Assembly: GCA_005887825.1 (NCBI GenBank)
Contig: VBQC01000006.1
Span: 1 to 46,288, forward strand
Source of the DNA: Verrucomicrobiota bacterium
Lineage (GTDB): Bacteria > Verrucomicrobiota > Verrucomicrobiia > Chthoniobacterales > UBA10450
Direction of reading: 5' to 3'
Length of the DNA: 46,288 nucleotides
The position numbers and the translations under genes are program-made. Shown one piece after another: positions 2,397-9,135 of the stretch. The notes beneath the pieces were generated by a model. That model searched no databases and was not told the DNA's origin. It worked only from the letters and a program-made list of their open reading frames with translations. Numbering within the stretch: the first letter of the stretch is position 1; every line of letters starts with the position of its first letter.

Positions 2397-2693
2397 TCAG
2401 TGACCGATTACGCGCAGTGAAGGCTCATTGATCAAAACGCCCGGGGTCGTACGGCGCCCTGTCTGGTCGATTTCACGACGATCAATAATTCGAACCGGCG
2501 AGACCGTCTTGGTGCCGATCGGCTCCAGTTTAACACGTTGTGGGATAAGCGAACCAGTGACGAAAATCGTCCGCTCTTCAACTTTTTGCTTCCGCTCGGA
2601 GGTTTGGTTGACCGTGGGATCGGCGAGCACTGTTACGGCAAGCATGCTGGCCACGATGAGAGTTATAGCGCTCGAAAATGTCAGGGTCTTCAC
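2397..2693 (-). CDS. Small secreted protein resembling the start of a TonB-receptor plug
   Basis: The protein has 98 residues, a GTG start and a clear signal peptide (MKTLTFSSAITLIVASMLA, then VTVLA before DPTVNQ). The mature part contains ERTIFVTGSLIPQRV followed by VRIIDRREIDQTG. This closely matches the start of the plug of the neighbouring TonB-dependent receptor (ERVIVTGSNIPTAEE and VDTYNRDSINKSG), but there is no further plug and no barrel. It ends cleanly with a stop after SLRVIGH. It lies downstream of the receptor on the same strand with a gap of about 130 bases. It could be a stand-alone domain acting on the receptor or TonB, or the remnant of a lost receptor. The intact frame and intact signal peptide argue mildly for function. 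The similarity is seen directly; the role is not known. Confidence 0.6.
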   Translation of the reverse strand: MKTLTFSSAITLIVASMLAVTVLADPTVNQTSERKQKVEERTIFVTGSLIPQRVKLEPIGTKTVSPVRIIDRREIDQTGRRTTPGVLINEPSLRVIGH

Positions 2694-2824
2694 GAATGAA
2701 GCTACACCAGCGAGGCCGTTGTGTGCAAATTATCGAAACGATGAAAATGGACCGTTTCTGCAAAAAGCAAGGGACCCAGAGGCTCTTGCCACTGCGTCTT
2801 CACCGACTAGACTGAAATCAAGCG

Positions 2825-5800
2825 TTAGAACTTCTTCGTGATGCGCCCGTAAACGAACCGGCCGGTAGCATCGTAGGTAAAGCCGGGATAACCGACCGCG
2901 TTTCCGCCTTCCCCGAATGCCTTAGGCGGATCCTGACCGAAAACGTCATTGCACCCAATAGTGAGGATCGTGCCTCTCAACAAATGATCCAAGACGCTAC
3001 GAGCGTAGTTGCTGGTCTGAGCCGAGGCAGTTTCCAAAGGGTTGCCGTCTTTGCCGCGAACGACCTCTTTTTCTCCCTTGGAATAGCCGGGTACCGGCCG
3101 CTCCTCAACCGGAAGAAGAGCGGTGAAATCGTAGGAAGCCTGGACGTCGACGAAAACGGTCTGGTGAACCCAGTGCTGGTGAAGGTTTGGCGTAAATTCG
3201 TGGAAGCCGTCGATGTAGCGCGCGATGGCATAGAGATCGAAGCCCTTCCACGTCCAGTCGAGGCTGGAAGTACCTTTCCATTTATACCAACCTTCATTCG
3301 AAGTGCCCGGGTCGGTGGTTCTGCCGGCCAGGTTGCCATTGTCCGGCCCGAACTCTCGGAAGATGAACCCCTGGAAGATGAATTCATCCAGGTAGGTGAC
3401 TTGCGTGAGGGAGGTGAATGTTCCCCAAGGCGTTGGTCTTTGGTACTGGAGGCCGAAGTCAAACCCGCGAGCCTCTTGATTGCCTATGTTCTGATTTCGA
3501 CTCAAGATACGTGTGATGTTTCCACCAATGTCGCGCTCCACCGCTTCGCCGGGCAACAATGTGCCTGTTAGTTCACGTTGCAGTACTTGGTCGTCCAACG
3601 GCGCAGTAACGACGCCGGTGCGCTCGATGTCCCAAAAATCAACCGAGAGGTTCAAACCAGGCACATACTTGGGCGTGTAAACAAATCCGCCGCTGAACGA
3701 ACGGGAATCCTCTGGCTGGAGCCCGGGATTGCTGCTTATAAGGGTGTTCGTCTCAGGTTCAAAGACTCCGCCCTTCTTCGGATCGTGAGAAGGCTCCAGA
3801 GTTGAGAGCGGAGACCCAAATAATTCCTCAAGGCTGGGCTCGCGAAACCCTTCGCCCCAAGTCGCACGCAGAGTCAGCTGCTCGTCGAATGGTTGCCAGC
3901 GCATGCCTACCTTCGGCACCAGGACATTGGTGTCGTTGTTCAAGAATTCTTCAAACCGGCCGCCAGCCACAAACTCCAGGGAATGGAAGCCGGGAATTGC
4001 ATTGGCCGGGCTGAAGATCGGAATGCTAGTTTCTGCGTAGAACGCATAGGCCTTTCTTCCACCCTGAGCGGTCGGAACTGGCGAATTACCGACAATATCA
4101 CCCTCGACGTTCAGCATATCCGGATTCTCCTTAAGCGATTCGCGGCGGAACTGACCACCGAAGGCCAAGCCAACGCCCCCGGCCGGTAAGTTGAAGAGCG
4201 CCGTTGTGTACATGGTGGCATCCAAGGTGGCCAACTTCGAGGTGTCTTCGTCTTTGGGATGTACCCTGGCAAACTCGACCGTGGCCTCATTAGACGGGAT
4301 CGGAGCGCGAAAATCACCGAAAGGATTAAAGGCAGGCTGGCCAGCGAGCGCTCCACCCGGTTGAAAGATCGGATCGGCCTGGTTCAAGATTCGGTTGAAT
4401 CGCGAGGCGGATACTTGCGTCCCGGTAACCGTGTTCTTGAGCTGACTGTAGCGGAACGCAGCGTCGTACCCCCAGGTTCCGTCAAAAAGCTTGTCCCCCT
4501 TAAAGCCGATCGTGCTGAGCCACGCGTCGGTTTCGTTATCGAACAAACGGTTTCCAAATTCAGCCAGACGCGCACGAGTGCCGCCCGAGATAATCTGCTG
4601 GAAAGGGTTAAAAGGATTGAATGCATCCGCCGGAAGACCGGTCTCCGCGTGGGTGGGGGTGTTGGGTGGCTCCGCGCCGGGCGCAATTGGCGACTGCGGC
4701 GGAATGGCCAATGTGGTCTGACCTAAGGTCTGGAATGAACCGGTGGCTGGAGCCGCCAGTTCGTTGTGCGTTTTCACGTTCTGATAAAACCCGTCAGCAT
4801 AAACGACCAGCTGATCGCCAAAGACCTTGTGGTCGGCACTGAGCCAAACGCCGTAGCGCTCCGACTCCGGGAAGGAGAGCGAGAACTGATTGAAGTTGAA
4901 TCCAGGGCGCAGACCGCCGGCCGCCCTGACACGCCTATCGGCCAAGTAGAGATAGGTGTTTGCCGGGGCCAATCCGTTAGTAAGATCTGGTGCAGATGCG
5001 AATTCAGTCCCACCAGGATTTAAATTCTGGCCACCAGCGGCCCCCGCCACATCGCTGCTGAGCTGAAGATTATAAGGACTATTGTTCGAGCTTAGGAACG
5101 GCGGATTAGCCGAGAAACCGCGATCGCGATTGGCGATGGAGTTGCGATGATAGTAATTCAAGACGCCGGTAATGTTGGTATCTCCCTTGCCAACACCGAA
5201 GACAGCCGATGCGTCGAATAAACCCGAGTCTTTATCGAGCGTGTTGCCGTATTCGACCCTCGATTCCGCGCCATCGTAGCGGTGCCGCATCTTGAGGTTC
5301 ACGACACCAGCCACCGCGTCCGCACCGTAAGTGGTGGAGGCGCCGTCTTTCAGAATTTCGATGCTCTCAATAGCGGCTTGAGGGATTGAATTCAAATCGA
5401 CAAACATCACGTTAACCAGGCCGGGATTGTTGCCCGTCGGATACGGAGCGACTCGGCGTCCATCGAGAAGGATGAGAGTGGCCCTGGCATCGAAACCGTG
5501 GAGCGCAACTGTCGCCGCGCCCACAGCGGTGTTGGAGCCGTTCTCGTTATTCGAGATCGGAACGACGTTCGCGTTCACGACCGGCAGGCTCAGGAGAAAT
5601 GTCTCTGTGGTGAGCTCACCTGATTTGTTGATCGAATCGCGATTATAGGTGTCCACCGGGTTCGGTCCGACTTCTTCTGCCGTCGGAATGTTCGAACCCG
5701 TTACGATGACGCGCTCGGCTTCCGCAGTGGCCGCCGGCGGGGCAGCACCCTGTGGAGGTGGCGGTGGCGGGGGATTCTGCGCAAATGCGCTCGACGCGAT

Positions 5801-5875
5801 AATGAGAGGGATTCCGACGCAGGCTGCGAGAGTCATGCGCAGGGATCCGAACGTATAAAGTCCGGTTCTGATCAT
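2825..5875 (-). CDS. TonB-dependent outer-membrane receptor
   Basis: The protein has 1016 residues. A signal peptide ends near SSAFA-QNPPP, followed by a Pro-rich spacer and a TonB-box/plug start (RVIVTGSNIP, residues ~55-65). The plug domain extends to about residue 190, with IESIEILKDGASTTYGADAVAGVVNLKMR as its typical end. A long beta-barrel follows and ends in the C-terminal aromatic signature RFVYGRITKKF, expected for BAM insertion. The length and the VTGSxIP start fit the large TonB receptors that often import oligosaccharides, peptides or siderophores, but no substrate can be assigned from sequence. No SusD-like partner or TonB/ExbBD is nearby. The start is supported by an AAGGAGA ribosome-binding site just upstream. 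The small mini-plug protein follows on the same strand. Confidence 0.93.
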   Translation of the reverse strand: MIRTGLYTFGSLRMTLAACVGIPLIIASSAFAQNPPPPPPPQGAAPPAATAEAERVIVTGSNIPTAEEVGPNPVDTYNRDSINKSGELTTETFLLSLPVVNANVVPISNNENGSNTAVGAATVALHGFDARATLILLDGRRVAPYPTGNNPGLVNVMFVDLNSIPQAAIESIEILKDGASTTYGADAVAGVVNLKMRHRYDGAESRVEYGNTLDKDSGLFDASAVFGVGKGDTNITGVLNYYHRNSIANRDRGFSANPPFLSSNNSPYNLQLSSDVAGAAGGQNLNPGGTEFASAPDLTNGLAPANTYLYLADRRVRAAGGLRPGFNFNQFSLSFPESERYGVWLSADHKVFGDQLVVYADGFYQNVKTHNELAAPATGSFQTLGQTTLAIPPQSPIAPGAEPPNTPTHAETGLPADAFNPFNPFQQIISGGTRARLAEFGNRLFDNETDAWLSTIGFKGDKLFDGTWGYDAAFRYSQLKNTVTGTQVSASRFNRILNQADPIFQPGGALAGQPAFNPFGDFRAPIPSNEATVEFARVHPKDEDTSKLATLDATMYTTALFNLPAGGVGLAFGGQFRRESLKENPDMLNVEGDIVGNSPVPTAQGGRKAYAFYAETSIPIFSPANAIPGFHSLEFVAGGRFEEFLNNDTNVLVPKVGMRWQPFDEQLTLRATWGEGFREPSLEELFGSPLSTLEPSHDPKKGGVFEPETNTLISSNPGLQPEDSRSFSGGFVYTPKYVPGLNLSVDFWDIERTGVVTAPLDDQVLQRELTGTLLPGEAVERDIGGNITRILSRNQNIGNQEARGFDFGLQYQRPTPWGTFTSLTQVTYLDEFIFQGFIFREFGPDNGNLAGRTTDPGTSNEGWYKWKGTSSLDWTWKGFDLYAIARYIDGFHEFTPNLHQHWVHQTVFVDVQASYDFTALLPVEERPVPGYSKGEKEVVRGKDGNPLETASAQTSNYARSVLDHLLRGTILTIGCNDVFGQDPPKAFGEGGNAVGYPGFTYDATGRFVYGRITKKF

Positions 5876-6267: not shown

Positions 6268-9135
6268 TCAGCGTGGAGGACGGAAGCCGAATTCAGCCTG
6301 CAATTCTCCCCAGAGCCAATCCACAAACCAGTCCTTCTGGATCGATCCATTTTCGGCGGCGGCCAGCGCTTCCGCTTTCTCCACTTTGCCGTTTAAGCAA
6401 TAAAGGTAAGTGAGCAGGAACAAGTTATTGATATTGGCGAAGGCGCGATCTCTCTCGCCTTCCAACAGTTGAATAGCGCCAGGCAAGTCCCGCCGGGCGA
6501 GCGCTCCCGCGACCAAATCCGGCAGGGCTGCGACAGGTAAGCTGGGCGAATTAACCGCCAGCTTTTGCGCAAGAGCGAGGCGGAATTCATCACTGTTCTG
6601 GACCGCGAGGACAGGCGTTCGCAGCTGCGTGTGGCGCAGGTAGAGGTCAAGCTCGGCCAACCAATTGCTCCCGGAGATTTCCGAAAGGTATCGCGTTTCG
6701 CGGACGAGAAAGAGAAGCTCGAGTGATTTCTTCCATTCGTTAGGCCAAATCTCTTTGATCAGCGAGGACGAAAGAAAACGGTGAAACGCGGCAGACCTTT
6801 CGAGATACGTATAACCAAATTGGTGTACGGCGTTCAGATCGGGATGCACGTCGGTCAGGCGTTTCGGATAAAGATCGCTCAGCGGTTCGACGCCCTGCGT
6901 GATCCGATCGATTTCCTCGCCATCCATGAGAAATAAGGCGGACATCTGCGCGGGAACCTCGATGCCGATCCGGCCCAAGTCTAAGCGAGTCCCCGCATCG
7001 CTCCAGAGTGCGCGCGCCGCTTCTTCGTTAGGCTTATGCAGCGGTCCTTTCATTCCGGTCATGATCCATTCCAAATCGCAGGTCGCCCAGACGGAGGCGT
7101 TCGGGAAGACGTTGTGGAAGCCACGGAGGATTGCTTTCGTCTCGTCCGTTGTTAGTTGGTAAATCGGAAGCCAAAAGGTCGCGATCCCGCCGTCCTTTAA
7201 GCGGTCGTTCAAGAGCGAGAAAAATTGTTGAGTATACAGATTAACCGTTCCCGCTACTTTCAACGGCGGTGGTTCACCGGTGATAATGTCGTAGCTCTCG
7301 GGACTGGCTTGCAGGAAGAAGCGGCCATCTTGCACAAAGGTTGTCACCCGAGGATCGCGTAATGGATTGGAGTAACCAGGGCCGGAATAGGAACTGGCGA
7401 GATCGAAGACTTCTTTTGAGATATCCACGACGTCCAGATGCTTGAGATGCGGATCGCGAGTGAATGCATCGGCGGTGACGCCCATGCCGTAGCAGATCAG
7501 CAACGCATTTTCGGCTTCGGGACGGAGAGCCAGCGGCAAGTACGCGAACAATCGCATGTAGCGTTGGCTGCGCGGCAGCGTGCCTGACATTGAATAGGCG
7601 TTCGTGATCAGCCGGTAGTAGTAAGGTTCGCCGAAAAGATCGCGGCGCAGCAGCTGGAGTGTATCAGCGGCGCCCTCGATTCTTTTGATTAAGTGTGAAC
7701 CATCCGCTTCGTACGGGCGACGGGCATTGGCGAAATGCGTTTCGTCGCGATGATAGGGGAAGGTTGCGATGATCAGGATCAGCATCGCGGCAAGCGCAAG
7801 CAGTGCGATTCCGAGCGGCCGTCGAATAGACCACGTCGGTTTTTCGCTCGCGAGAATAGCCAGCCCAGCATAACACGCTGCGCATAAGATAAAGCTTGAT
7901 TGGAATCCGAGCCACGGCAGCAGGACAAAACAGGCGAGCAATGGACCGAGGGCTGCGCCAGTCGTGTTAAACAAAATGGTAAGACCCGCGCTGTTCATGC
8001 GGCTTGCCACTTCGCGCTGAACACAGGTCAGGATTAACGGAAAAAGAATCCCCGATAGAAATGCAACGGGAAACATCAAGGCCAGCGATAGCCGCTCGAT
8101 CTGCTGCCAGGACTCAATGTGGAAGGCGTTTGTGTTCCCTTGAAGAACTGGCACCGGAAAAAACAGATAGGAGAGAAGTGTCCCAATTGCGGCGACGAGT
8201 AAAAGAATCGGAAGCAATTTTCTCGGCGATGCGAGGCGGCGCGGAATCACGCTCGATGTGACGCTGCCGAGGCCAATTCCCACCAACACGACAGCAAGCA
8301 TGACGCAGAAAGCGGTAGATGTGGATGCCACATACAAGCGCATGAATCGGAACCAAATTACTTCGAGGCCAAGAAGAATCGCGCCCGCTCCCATGCTAAC
8401 AAAGAGCAGACTCCAGGGCGGCCGCTTGCCTAACGAGAGCCGCAATCGAAATCGCTTTGGAGTTTGCCCGGTTGTCACCGGCTTTGCACCGGAGAATAGC
8501 CACGCAATTCCAGCCGCGGCGCAACTCATGCAGCCAGCCGTCAACCCCGTGCCCAAAAGTCCGCACGTCCGGATCAGATAAGCTTCCCCTAGCAAGGCGC
8601 CGGCCACCGCGCCCAACGTGTTAAATCCGTAAAGAATACCGATGGTGCGGGCGAATTCCTGGTGGGTTAGAAGCGGATCTTCCAGCAATACGGGAAGGGT
8701 TAATCCCATGGCCGTCGTGGGAATAATCAGAATCGAAAACGACACCGAGAAACGCAGACCGTTCAGGAACTGCTGATGATTCCAGAGCGCTTGAAAAACA
8801 GGACGCATCCACTCTCCAAGCAGCGGAAGCCCAAACACGAGGGTGCAACCGAAGACCGCTATAGCCACTTCCAATCCCGCGTAAACGCGCAGCGGTCGCC
8901 ACCGCTGCAGCGTCCACGATGCGGCAATAGCACTTCCGAGCGCGAGGCCCGCCATGAAGCTGGATAGAACCAATGCAGCGGCCCAAACCGAATTGCCGAA
9001 AGCCAATCCGCTTAGCCGGAGCCAGAGAGTTTGAAAAAGAAGCGCGCTGCTACCGGAGAGAAAAAGAATGACCGAGACAATGGCGGTGCGCACGCGCCGA
9101 AACGTGCAACGCCGCACTCTGCACTGCAATCGCAA
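6268..9135 (-). CDS. Fused MFS-like membrane / spermidine-synthase-like protein
   Basis: The protein has 955 residues; an in-frame GTG at 9090 (VRTAIVSV) is an alternative start. The first ~460 residues are a string of about a dozen hydrophobic segments with MFS-like loops. Residues ~535-700 form a spermidine-synthase-like Rossmann domain: ALLICYGMGVTADAF (nucleotide loop), LDVVDISKEVF (acidic strand end) and DIITGEPPPLKVAGTVNLYT (region of the aminopropyl-transfer loop). The catalytic Asp-Asp pattern of true spermidine synthases is not evident (GEPPP instead). The C-terminal ~220 residues are helical and TPR-like (ALARRDLPGAIQLLEGE). Such fusions are widespread and functionally uncharacterised. 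It sits alone between a pseudogene and tRNA-Ala, on the minus strand. Confidence 0.85.
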   Translation of the reverse strand: MRLQCRVRRCTFRRVRTAIVSVILFLSGSSALLFQTLWLRLSGLAFGNSVWAAALVLSSFMAGLALGSAIAASWTLQRWRPLRVYAGLEVAIAVFGCTLVFGLPLLGEWMRPVFQALWNHQQFLNGLRFSVSFSILIIPTTAMGLTLPVLLEDPLLTHQEFARTIGILYGFNTLGAVAGALLGEAYLIRTCGLLGTGLTAGCMSCAAAGIAWLFSGAKPVTTGQTPKRFRLRLSLGKRPPWSLLFVSMGAGAILLGLEVIWFRFMRLYVASTSTAFCVMLAVVLVGIGLGSVTSSVIPRRLASPRKLLPILLLVAAIGTLLSYLFFPVPVLQGNTNAFHIESWQQIERLSLALMFPVAFLSGILFPLILTCVQREVASRMNSAGLTILFNTTGAALGPLLACFVLLPWLGFQSSFILCAACYAGLAILASEKPTWSIRRPLGIALLALAAMLILIIATFPYHRDETHFANARRPYEADGSHLIKRIEGAADTLQLLRRDLFGEPYYYRLITNAYSMSGTLPRSQRYMRLFAYLPLALRPEAENALLICYGMGVTADAFTRDPHLKHLDVVDISKEVFDLASSYSGPGYSNPLRDPRVTTFVQDGRFFLQASPESYDIITGEPPPLKVAGTVNLYTQQFFSLLNDRLKDGGIATFWLPIYQLTTDETKAILRGFHNVFPNASVWATCDLEWIMTGMKGPLHKPNEEAARALWSDAGTRLDLGRIGIEVPAQMSALFLMDGEEIDRITQGVEPLSDLYPKRLTDVHPDLNAVHQFGYTYLERSAAFHRFLSSSLIKEIWPNEWKKSLELLFLVRETRYLSEISGSNWLAELDLYLRHTQLRTPVLAVQNSDEFRLALAQKLAVNSPSLPVAALPDLVAGALARRDLPGAIQLLEGERDRAFANINNLFLLTYLYCLNGKVEKAEALAAAENGSIQKDWFVDWLWGELQAEFGFRPPR

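Follow-up and report, generated by a model that had tools for sequence, protein, structure and literature searches.

A 98-codon reading frame that resembles the front end of a TonB-dependent receptor, and is located beside an intact receptor gene, raises the question of whether it is a leftover of a dead transporter or a gene in its own right, and, if a gene, what a receptor front end without a barrel could do. Bacteria often have many TonB receptors sharing a limited supply of TonB, and to our knowledge the governance of this sharing among receptors is largely open. The window examined here is the whole 46288 bp stretch of DNA in which the frame, referred to below as the mini-plug, was found.

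The mini-plug gene and its surroundings

The features of the locus are listed below, where A2 is an alignment of 50 mini-plug members from the window's own bacterial family.

2397 to 2693, minus strand: mini-plug coding sequence, 98 amino acids (aa), with a GTG start at 2693 and the stop codon at 2397-2399; supported by the 50 relatives in A2 and by dN/dS
2825 to 5875, minus strand: partner TonB-dependent receptor, 1016 aa, intact, with Plug (PF07715) and barrel (PF00593) domains
2622 to 2693, minus strand: signal-peptide-like N-terminus, residues 1-24, recognised by eye; Met1, Lys2 and Ala24 are conserved in A2, and this part evolves faster than the mature part (dN/dS)
2550 to 2573, minus strand: Ton-box-like segment RTIFVTGS, residues 41-48, which aligns with ERVIVTGS of the receptor and is conserved in A2
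2511 to 2540, minus strand: segment QRVKLEPIGT, residues 52-61, containing a mini-plug-specific insertion of ~6 residues that is absent from receptors
2409 to 2501, minus strand: plug-start segment SPVRIIDRREIDQTGRRTTPGVLINEPSLRV, residues 65-95, homologous by profile comparison to the first part of TonB-receptor plugs
2701 to 2728, minus strand: promoter-like element TTGCAC-N16-TGTAGC, 7 bases before the GTG, conserved in relatives and with a group score above all 300 shuffles

The frame is uninterrupted, as a preliminary description of this DNA had stated, and the minus strand and the GTG start can be added to that description, which gave no strand. It sits downstream of the complete receptor gene, on the same strand and with 131 bp between them, and the convergent neighbour on its other side encodes a sortilin/BNR-repeat protein (87-2381). 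Upstream of the receptor, the minus strand encodes a 955 aa protein (6268-9135) that has a spermidine-synthase domain and matches MFS weakly, and in genus g25 (L108-L110) a protein resembling it is located between the receptor and the mini-plug. The host genome assembly (G000) consists of 3.06 Mb in 367 contigs and is 90% complete. Five Plug-domain matches and eight TonB_C matches were found in it, the latter outnumbering the former in an assembly that is incomplete. The named relatives among public contigs were 'Verrucomicrobia bacterium' MAGs and one 'uncultured Candidatus Udaeobacter sp.'.

The product consists of a signal-like part, MKTLTFSSAITLIVASMLAVTVLA, and a mature part of 74 residues (residues 25-98), DPTVNQTSERKQKVEERTIFVTGSLIPQRVKLEPIGTKTVSPVRIIDRREIDQTGRRTTPGVLINEPSLRVIGH. 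By eye, the N-terminus, MKTLTFSSAITLIVASMLAVTVLA followed by D, resembles a signal peptide, and Ala24 is nearly invariant across the 50 relatives. The mini-plug is accordingly described here as a predicted exported small protein, probably periplasmic. The plug-start motif reported earlier (VTGSLIP and RIIDRREIDQTG) is present and aligns with ERVIVTGSNIP...NRDSINKSG of the receptor at 2825-5875, and the reported absence of a barrel holds, with the ORF stopping at residue 98, 51 residues past the Ton-box-like TIFVTG. In the Ton-box-like segment T46 and G47 are nearly invariant and S48 is invariant; Q52 and T61, which adjoin the Ton box, are nearly invariant (A2, n=50), and all of these rank among the most conserved residues of the alignment.

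In the window subfamily and its closest relatives, a TTGC-type box is followed after 15-19 bases by a TGTAAT- or TATTTT-like box ending 5-10 bases before the start codon. The third subfamily has TTGACC, a spacer of 15-17 bases and a TANNTT-like box whose end lies 5-8 bases from the start codon. The mean group score of this promoter-like element was higher than that of 300 of 300 dinucleotide shuffles in two subfamilies, a contrast that shared ancestry inflates. In the second subfamily (g2), a promoter scan positioned directly on the start codon did not outscore shuffles, and a different conserved block was found further upstream. The short distance from the element to the start codon would imply that the mini-plug transcript is leaderless.

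Conservation, selection and ancestry

Homologues were sought in related genomes, and a search with the single sequence gave matches in 24 of 58 of these. A 20-member profile gave matches in 48 of the order's 213 genomes. These 48 represent 11 genera, none outside the family of the window, and the count includes a few matches to the receptors themselves. Within the genus, 12 of 35 genomes were without any match, and many of these genomes are incomplete. The 50 members of A2 are 91-112 aa long, and all have a signal-like N-terminus and terminate close to the motif P-[SAG]-[LIV]-x-[VI], a few residues away at most. Relatives of the same size, the search for which had been proposed as a check on the preliminary description, therefore exist.

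The median dN/dS of the mature part was 0.28 in the window subfamily, 0.22 in the wider set, 0.29 in the second subfamily and 0.10 in the third, as calculated with a purpose-written Nei-Gojobori script from pairwise values that are not independent and that include some dS near saturation. Medians of ~0.1-0.3 indicate purifying selection, and the near-neutral ratio by which a dead receptor was to be recognised was not seen. Differences within the window subfamily at codon positions 1:2:3 numbered 294:171:601, an excess at third positions that is as expected for a coding frame. The ORF is a real functional gene, more than a chance opening, with purifying selection on its mature part. A frameshifted mini-plug was also found in one genome (L118:3-331), indicating that single copies can decay.

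When the mature mini-plugs were compared with the plug starts of the partner receptors using hhalign, the alignment covered 64 columns, beginning at the Ton box and reaching P-x-x-x-V, with a probability of 95.6 and an E value of 4.7e-9, which is that of a single comparison and not a database E-value. A phylum-wide search with the mini-plug profile brought up the N-termini of long TonB receptors, and 22 of the 28 ORFs examined matched known receptors of the set. On these profile comparisons, the mini-plug is homologous to the Ton box and the first ~50 plug residues of the receptors.

A tree of the 50 mini-plugs and 21 receptor plug starts, based on few columns and containing long branches, separates mini-plugs from receptors with support of 98/94, making it unlikely that the window receptor is a recent parent of its mini-plug. 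The tree indicates an early divergence of the mini-plugs from the receptor plugs, since when they have evolved as a separate family, and a single origin of the mini-plugs is compatible with it, not proven by it. That the mini-plug is a recent copy of the front end of its neighbour was rejected on this same tree of few columns and long branches.

A Pfam scan found no match for the window protein, and 6 of the 50 members matched Plug weakly (best E value 0.0035), short of the PF07715 gathering threshold. Scans of all 50 members against Pfam and NCBIfam gave only weak matches to Plug or TonB-receptor families and chance matches, and no Pfam or NCBIfam family describes the mini-plug. The mini-plug of this soil bacterium belongs to a real, undescribed protein family and is not debris of a dead transporter.

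A structural match to plug domains, also proposed earlier as a check, did not emerge. A profile search of the PDB gave sub-significant plug matches alone (CntO and FoxA, E values 0.35-0.44). AlphaFold models built with an alignment reached a pLDDT of 64 for the window protein and 54 for the third, more plug-like subfamily, which is too low to claim a fold, and a Foldseek search of the mini-plug model against the PDB found no plug. The predicted secondary structure suggests a hairpin with strand and helix elements after it. The low-confidence window model has a strand pair (39-44 and 51-56) around the Ton box and the insertion, and helices at 72-77 and 83-87. The mature 74 residues cover about the first half of a plug, and neither a complete plug domain nor its fold was found; a half-plug without a barrel may simply fold poorly.

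Receptor association, cousin families and possible roles

The genetic context was compared across all 50 mini-plug loci. A TonB receptor is located upstream, in the same orientation, in 36 of them, and in 26 of these the gap is shorter than 1 kb (105 to 992 bp); five other loci are cut by contig ends. As the host genome has five Plug-domain matches in 3 Mb, this adjacency is far above chance. A stand-alone, putatively secreted mini-plug beside a TonB receptor, as originally proposed, is supported by homology at the profile level and by synteny. No receptor was found in the upstream stretch examined in nine loci, eight of which are third-subfamily loci from genus g25, the other being L054. These eight g25 mini-plugs adjoin housekeeping-like genes and not receptors, so a strictly receptor-bound role is not general, and together with L054 they suggest that the role is not tied to a neighbouring receptor everywhere. 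In one locus (L101:7937-9216), the receptor is reduced to 3' remnants and the adjacent mini-plug is intact. In another (L039:5570-8571), the partner receptor upstream of an intact mini-plug appears to be divided between two overlapping ORFs, by a frameshift or an assembly error.

Profile matches also point to wider kin. In a second family of the same class (f17, possibly Opitutaceae), full mini-plugs in which a Cys-rich, metallothionein-like stretch, CKDGCKCEAGQCKC, precedes the hairpin were found in 6 of 150 genomes (L209-L214; e.g. L156:7101-7433, minus strand). Lipoproteins of 60-110 aa with an EYVxVTGSxIPxKVKKG hairpin, and sometimes an SPVxxI stretch, were found in 18 of 120 f17 genomes (L184-L208), and just 4 of 25 such loci have a receptor-like ORF within 1.5 kb. 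The hairpin lipoproteins at L158 and L163 are each located between two TonB receptor genes. The window's family includes a second secreted family, of 73-91 aa proteins, in which two Cys residues flank the same loop (CYxxTxxSxIPxPC; L037:4587-4859, L038:10359-10631, L039:9237-9509, L042:9121-9393, L164:2530-2799 and L160:6990-7208). A mini-plug adjoins it in four loci, and a gene judged by eye to resemble uvrA does so in two; L164 comes from another place in the window genome. The Cys-rich, lipoprotein and Cys-pair cousins appear to have the Ton-box-like hairpin in common, not the later part of the plug.

The calculations show coding status, purifying selection, homology, synteny and a promoter-like element, and from the sequences we infer export, TonB binding and a regulatory effect. 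The role that we tentatively favour is one in which the mini-plug acts in trans on the TonB system via its Ton-box segment, throttling or buffering receptor engagement. The exported protein would present in the periplasm a free-standing Ton box and about the first half of a plug, with the family-specific insertion between them. Its Ton-box segment would give the C-terminal domain of TonB a barrel-free strand on which to dock, and the mini-plug would thereby compete with, buffer or regulate the engagement of receptors by TonB, its upstream-encoded partner first. RTIFVTGS (residues 41-48) agrees with the Ton-box-like consensus of TonB ligands near the mature N-terminus, and the conserved VTGS segment and the existence of hairpin-only cousins favour a TonB-directed role.

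Among the other explanations, a relic of a dead or duplicated receptor that is open by chance, including the decayed receptor suggested in the preliminary description, is highly improbable. Such a relic would resemble a receptor front end and adjoin a receptor, as the mini-plug does, but it would not be expected to have 50 same-length relatives, a mature-part dN/dS well below 1, a third-position bias, a promoter-like element and a place in the tree apart from the receptors. Neutral evolution without a conserved length, as in receptor pseudogenes, was not observed, and as a general explanation the relic is refuted by conserved length and selection, although single decayed copies occur. More substantial, if still doubtful, is the possibility that a plug fragment was repurposed for a TonB-independent role, such as that of an adaptor in the periplasm or a peptide that handles metals. 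The likeness to a Ton box could then reflect inherited sequence put to a new use, and the Cys-rich segment of the full-length f17 mini-plugs, the lipoprotein nature of other relatives and the housekeeping-like neighbours of the g25 subfamily are consistent with this. However, few parts of the protein are as well conserved as the Ton-box segment, and the receptor adjacency in 36 of 50 loci, far above chance for a genome with ~5 such receptors, also argues against this reading.

The mini-plug could instead serve as a guard or spare half-plug. Bound to the periplasmic face or lumen of its partner's barrel, it would close the opening that arises when TonB draws out the weak half-plug of the receptor itself, and so reduce leakage or reset the plug. 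In BtuB, force spectroscopy found that half of the plug, the ~50 residues that come next to the Ton box on its C-terminal side, unfolds when TonB pulls (PMC5413942). The mini-plug, spanning the Ton box to a PGV-like end, is close to this weak subdomain, making either competition for TonB or temporary gap filling plausible, and in most loci its gene adjoins that of a receptor. Nevertheless, a guard is unlikely, as the f17 lipoprotein cousins keep the Ton-box hairpin without the terminal plug helix and some mini-plugs have no nearby receptor, both of which fit a Ton-box function better than gap filling, and the insertion is absent from receptor plugs. A regulatory or signalling peptide of the receptor locus, such as a periplasmic ligand or sensor anti-activator whose plug-like hairpin competes for a partner other than TonB, is quite improbable. 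A promoter-like element of its own and a constant position behind the receptor would suit such a peptide, as would the sigma-factor-like and kinase-like ORFs (by eye) that adjoin paralogous receptors in the same genome, but next to the mini-plug neither a sensor nor a sigma gene was seen.

Comparison with known systems

A literature search, with subscription papers and preprints outside its scope, found no description of a stand-alone half-plug. If action in trans on TonB is the true role, a conserved separate protein with a Ton box and the TonB-pulled part of a plug would provide a direct handle on TonB sharing, and small proteins without a Pfam match beside TonB receptors in other phyla would merit a second look. 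It is possible, if rather speculative, that this genome-encoded secreted half-plug is a natural Ton-box decoy or governor acting in trans, and that the class has variants elsewhere that are anchored as lipoproteins and may bind metal.

Relative to the PF07715 plug, the mini-plug has the same Ton-box-like segment and then the first plug part in the same order, ending at P-[GS]-[VIL]-x-[VI], but it represents only about the first half and has no barrel, its own signal peptide and a specific insertion (within QRVKLxPIGT). It also differs from TonB-dependent receptors in lacking the C-terminal outer-membrane beta-barrel. Free Ton-box pentapeptides were used in older inhibitor work against TonB function. 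The mini-plug presumably ends somewhat earlier than the weak subdomain of BtuB. Otherwise it covers much the same stretch as the weak plug subdomain of BtuB and FhuA, the ~50 residues following the Ton box, which is a covalent part of the receptor there and a separate protein in the mini-plug (PMC5413942). The BtuB study also used a free Ton-box pentapeptide as an added reagent in an in vivo assay (PMC5413942). Both pentapeptide and mini-plug have a Ton box without a barrel, a behaviour that for the mini-plug we infer, but the pentapeptide is synthetic and has no plug part, whereas the mini-plug is encoded in the genome and, as predicted, secreted.
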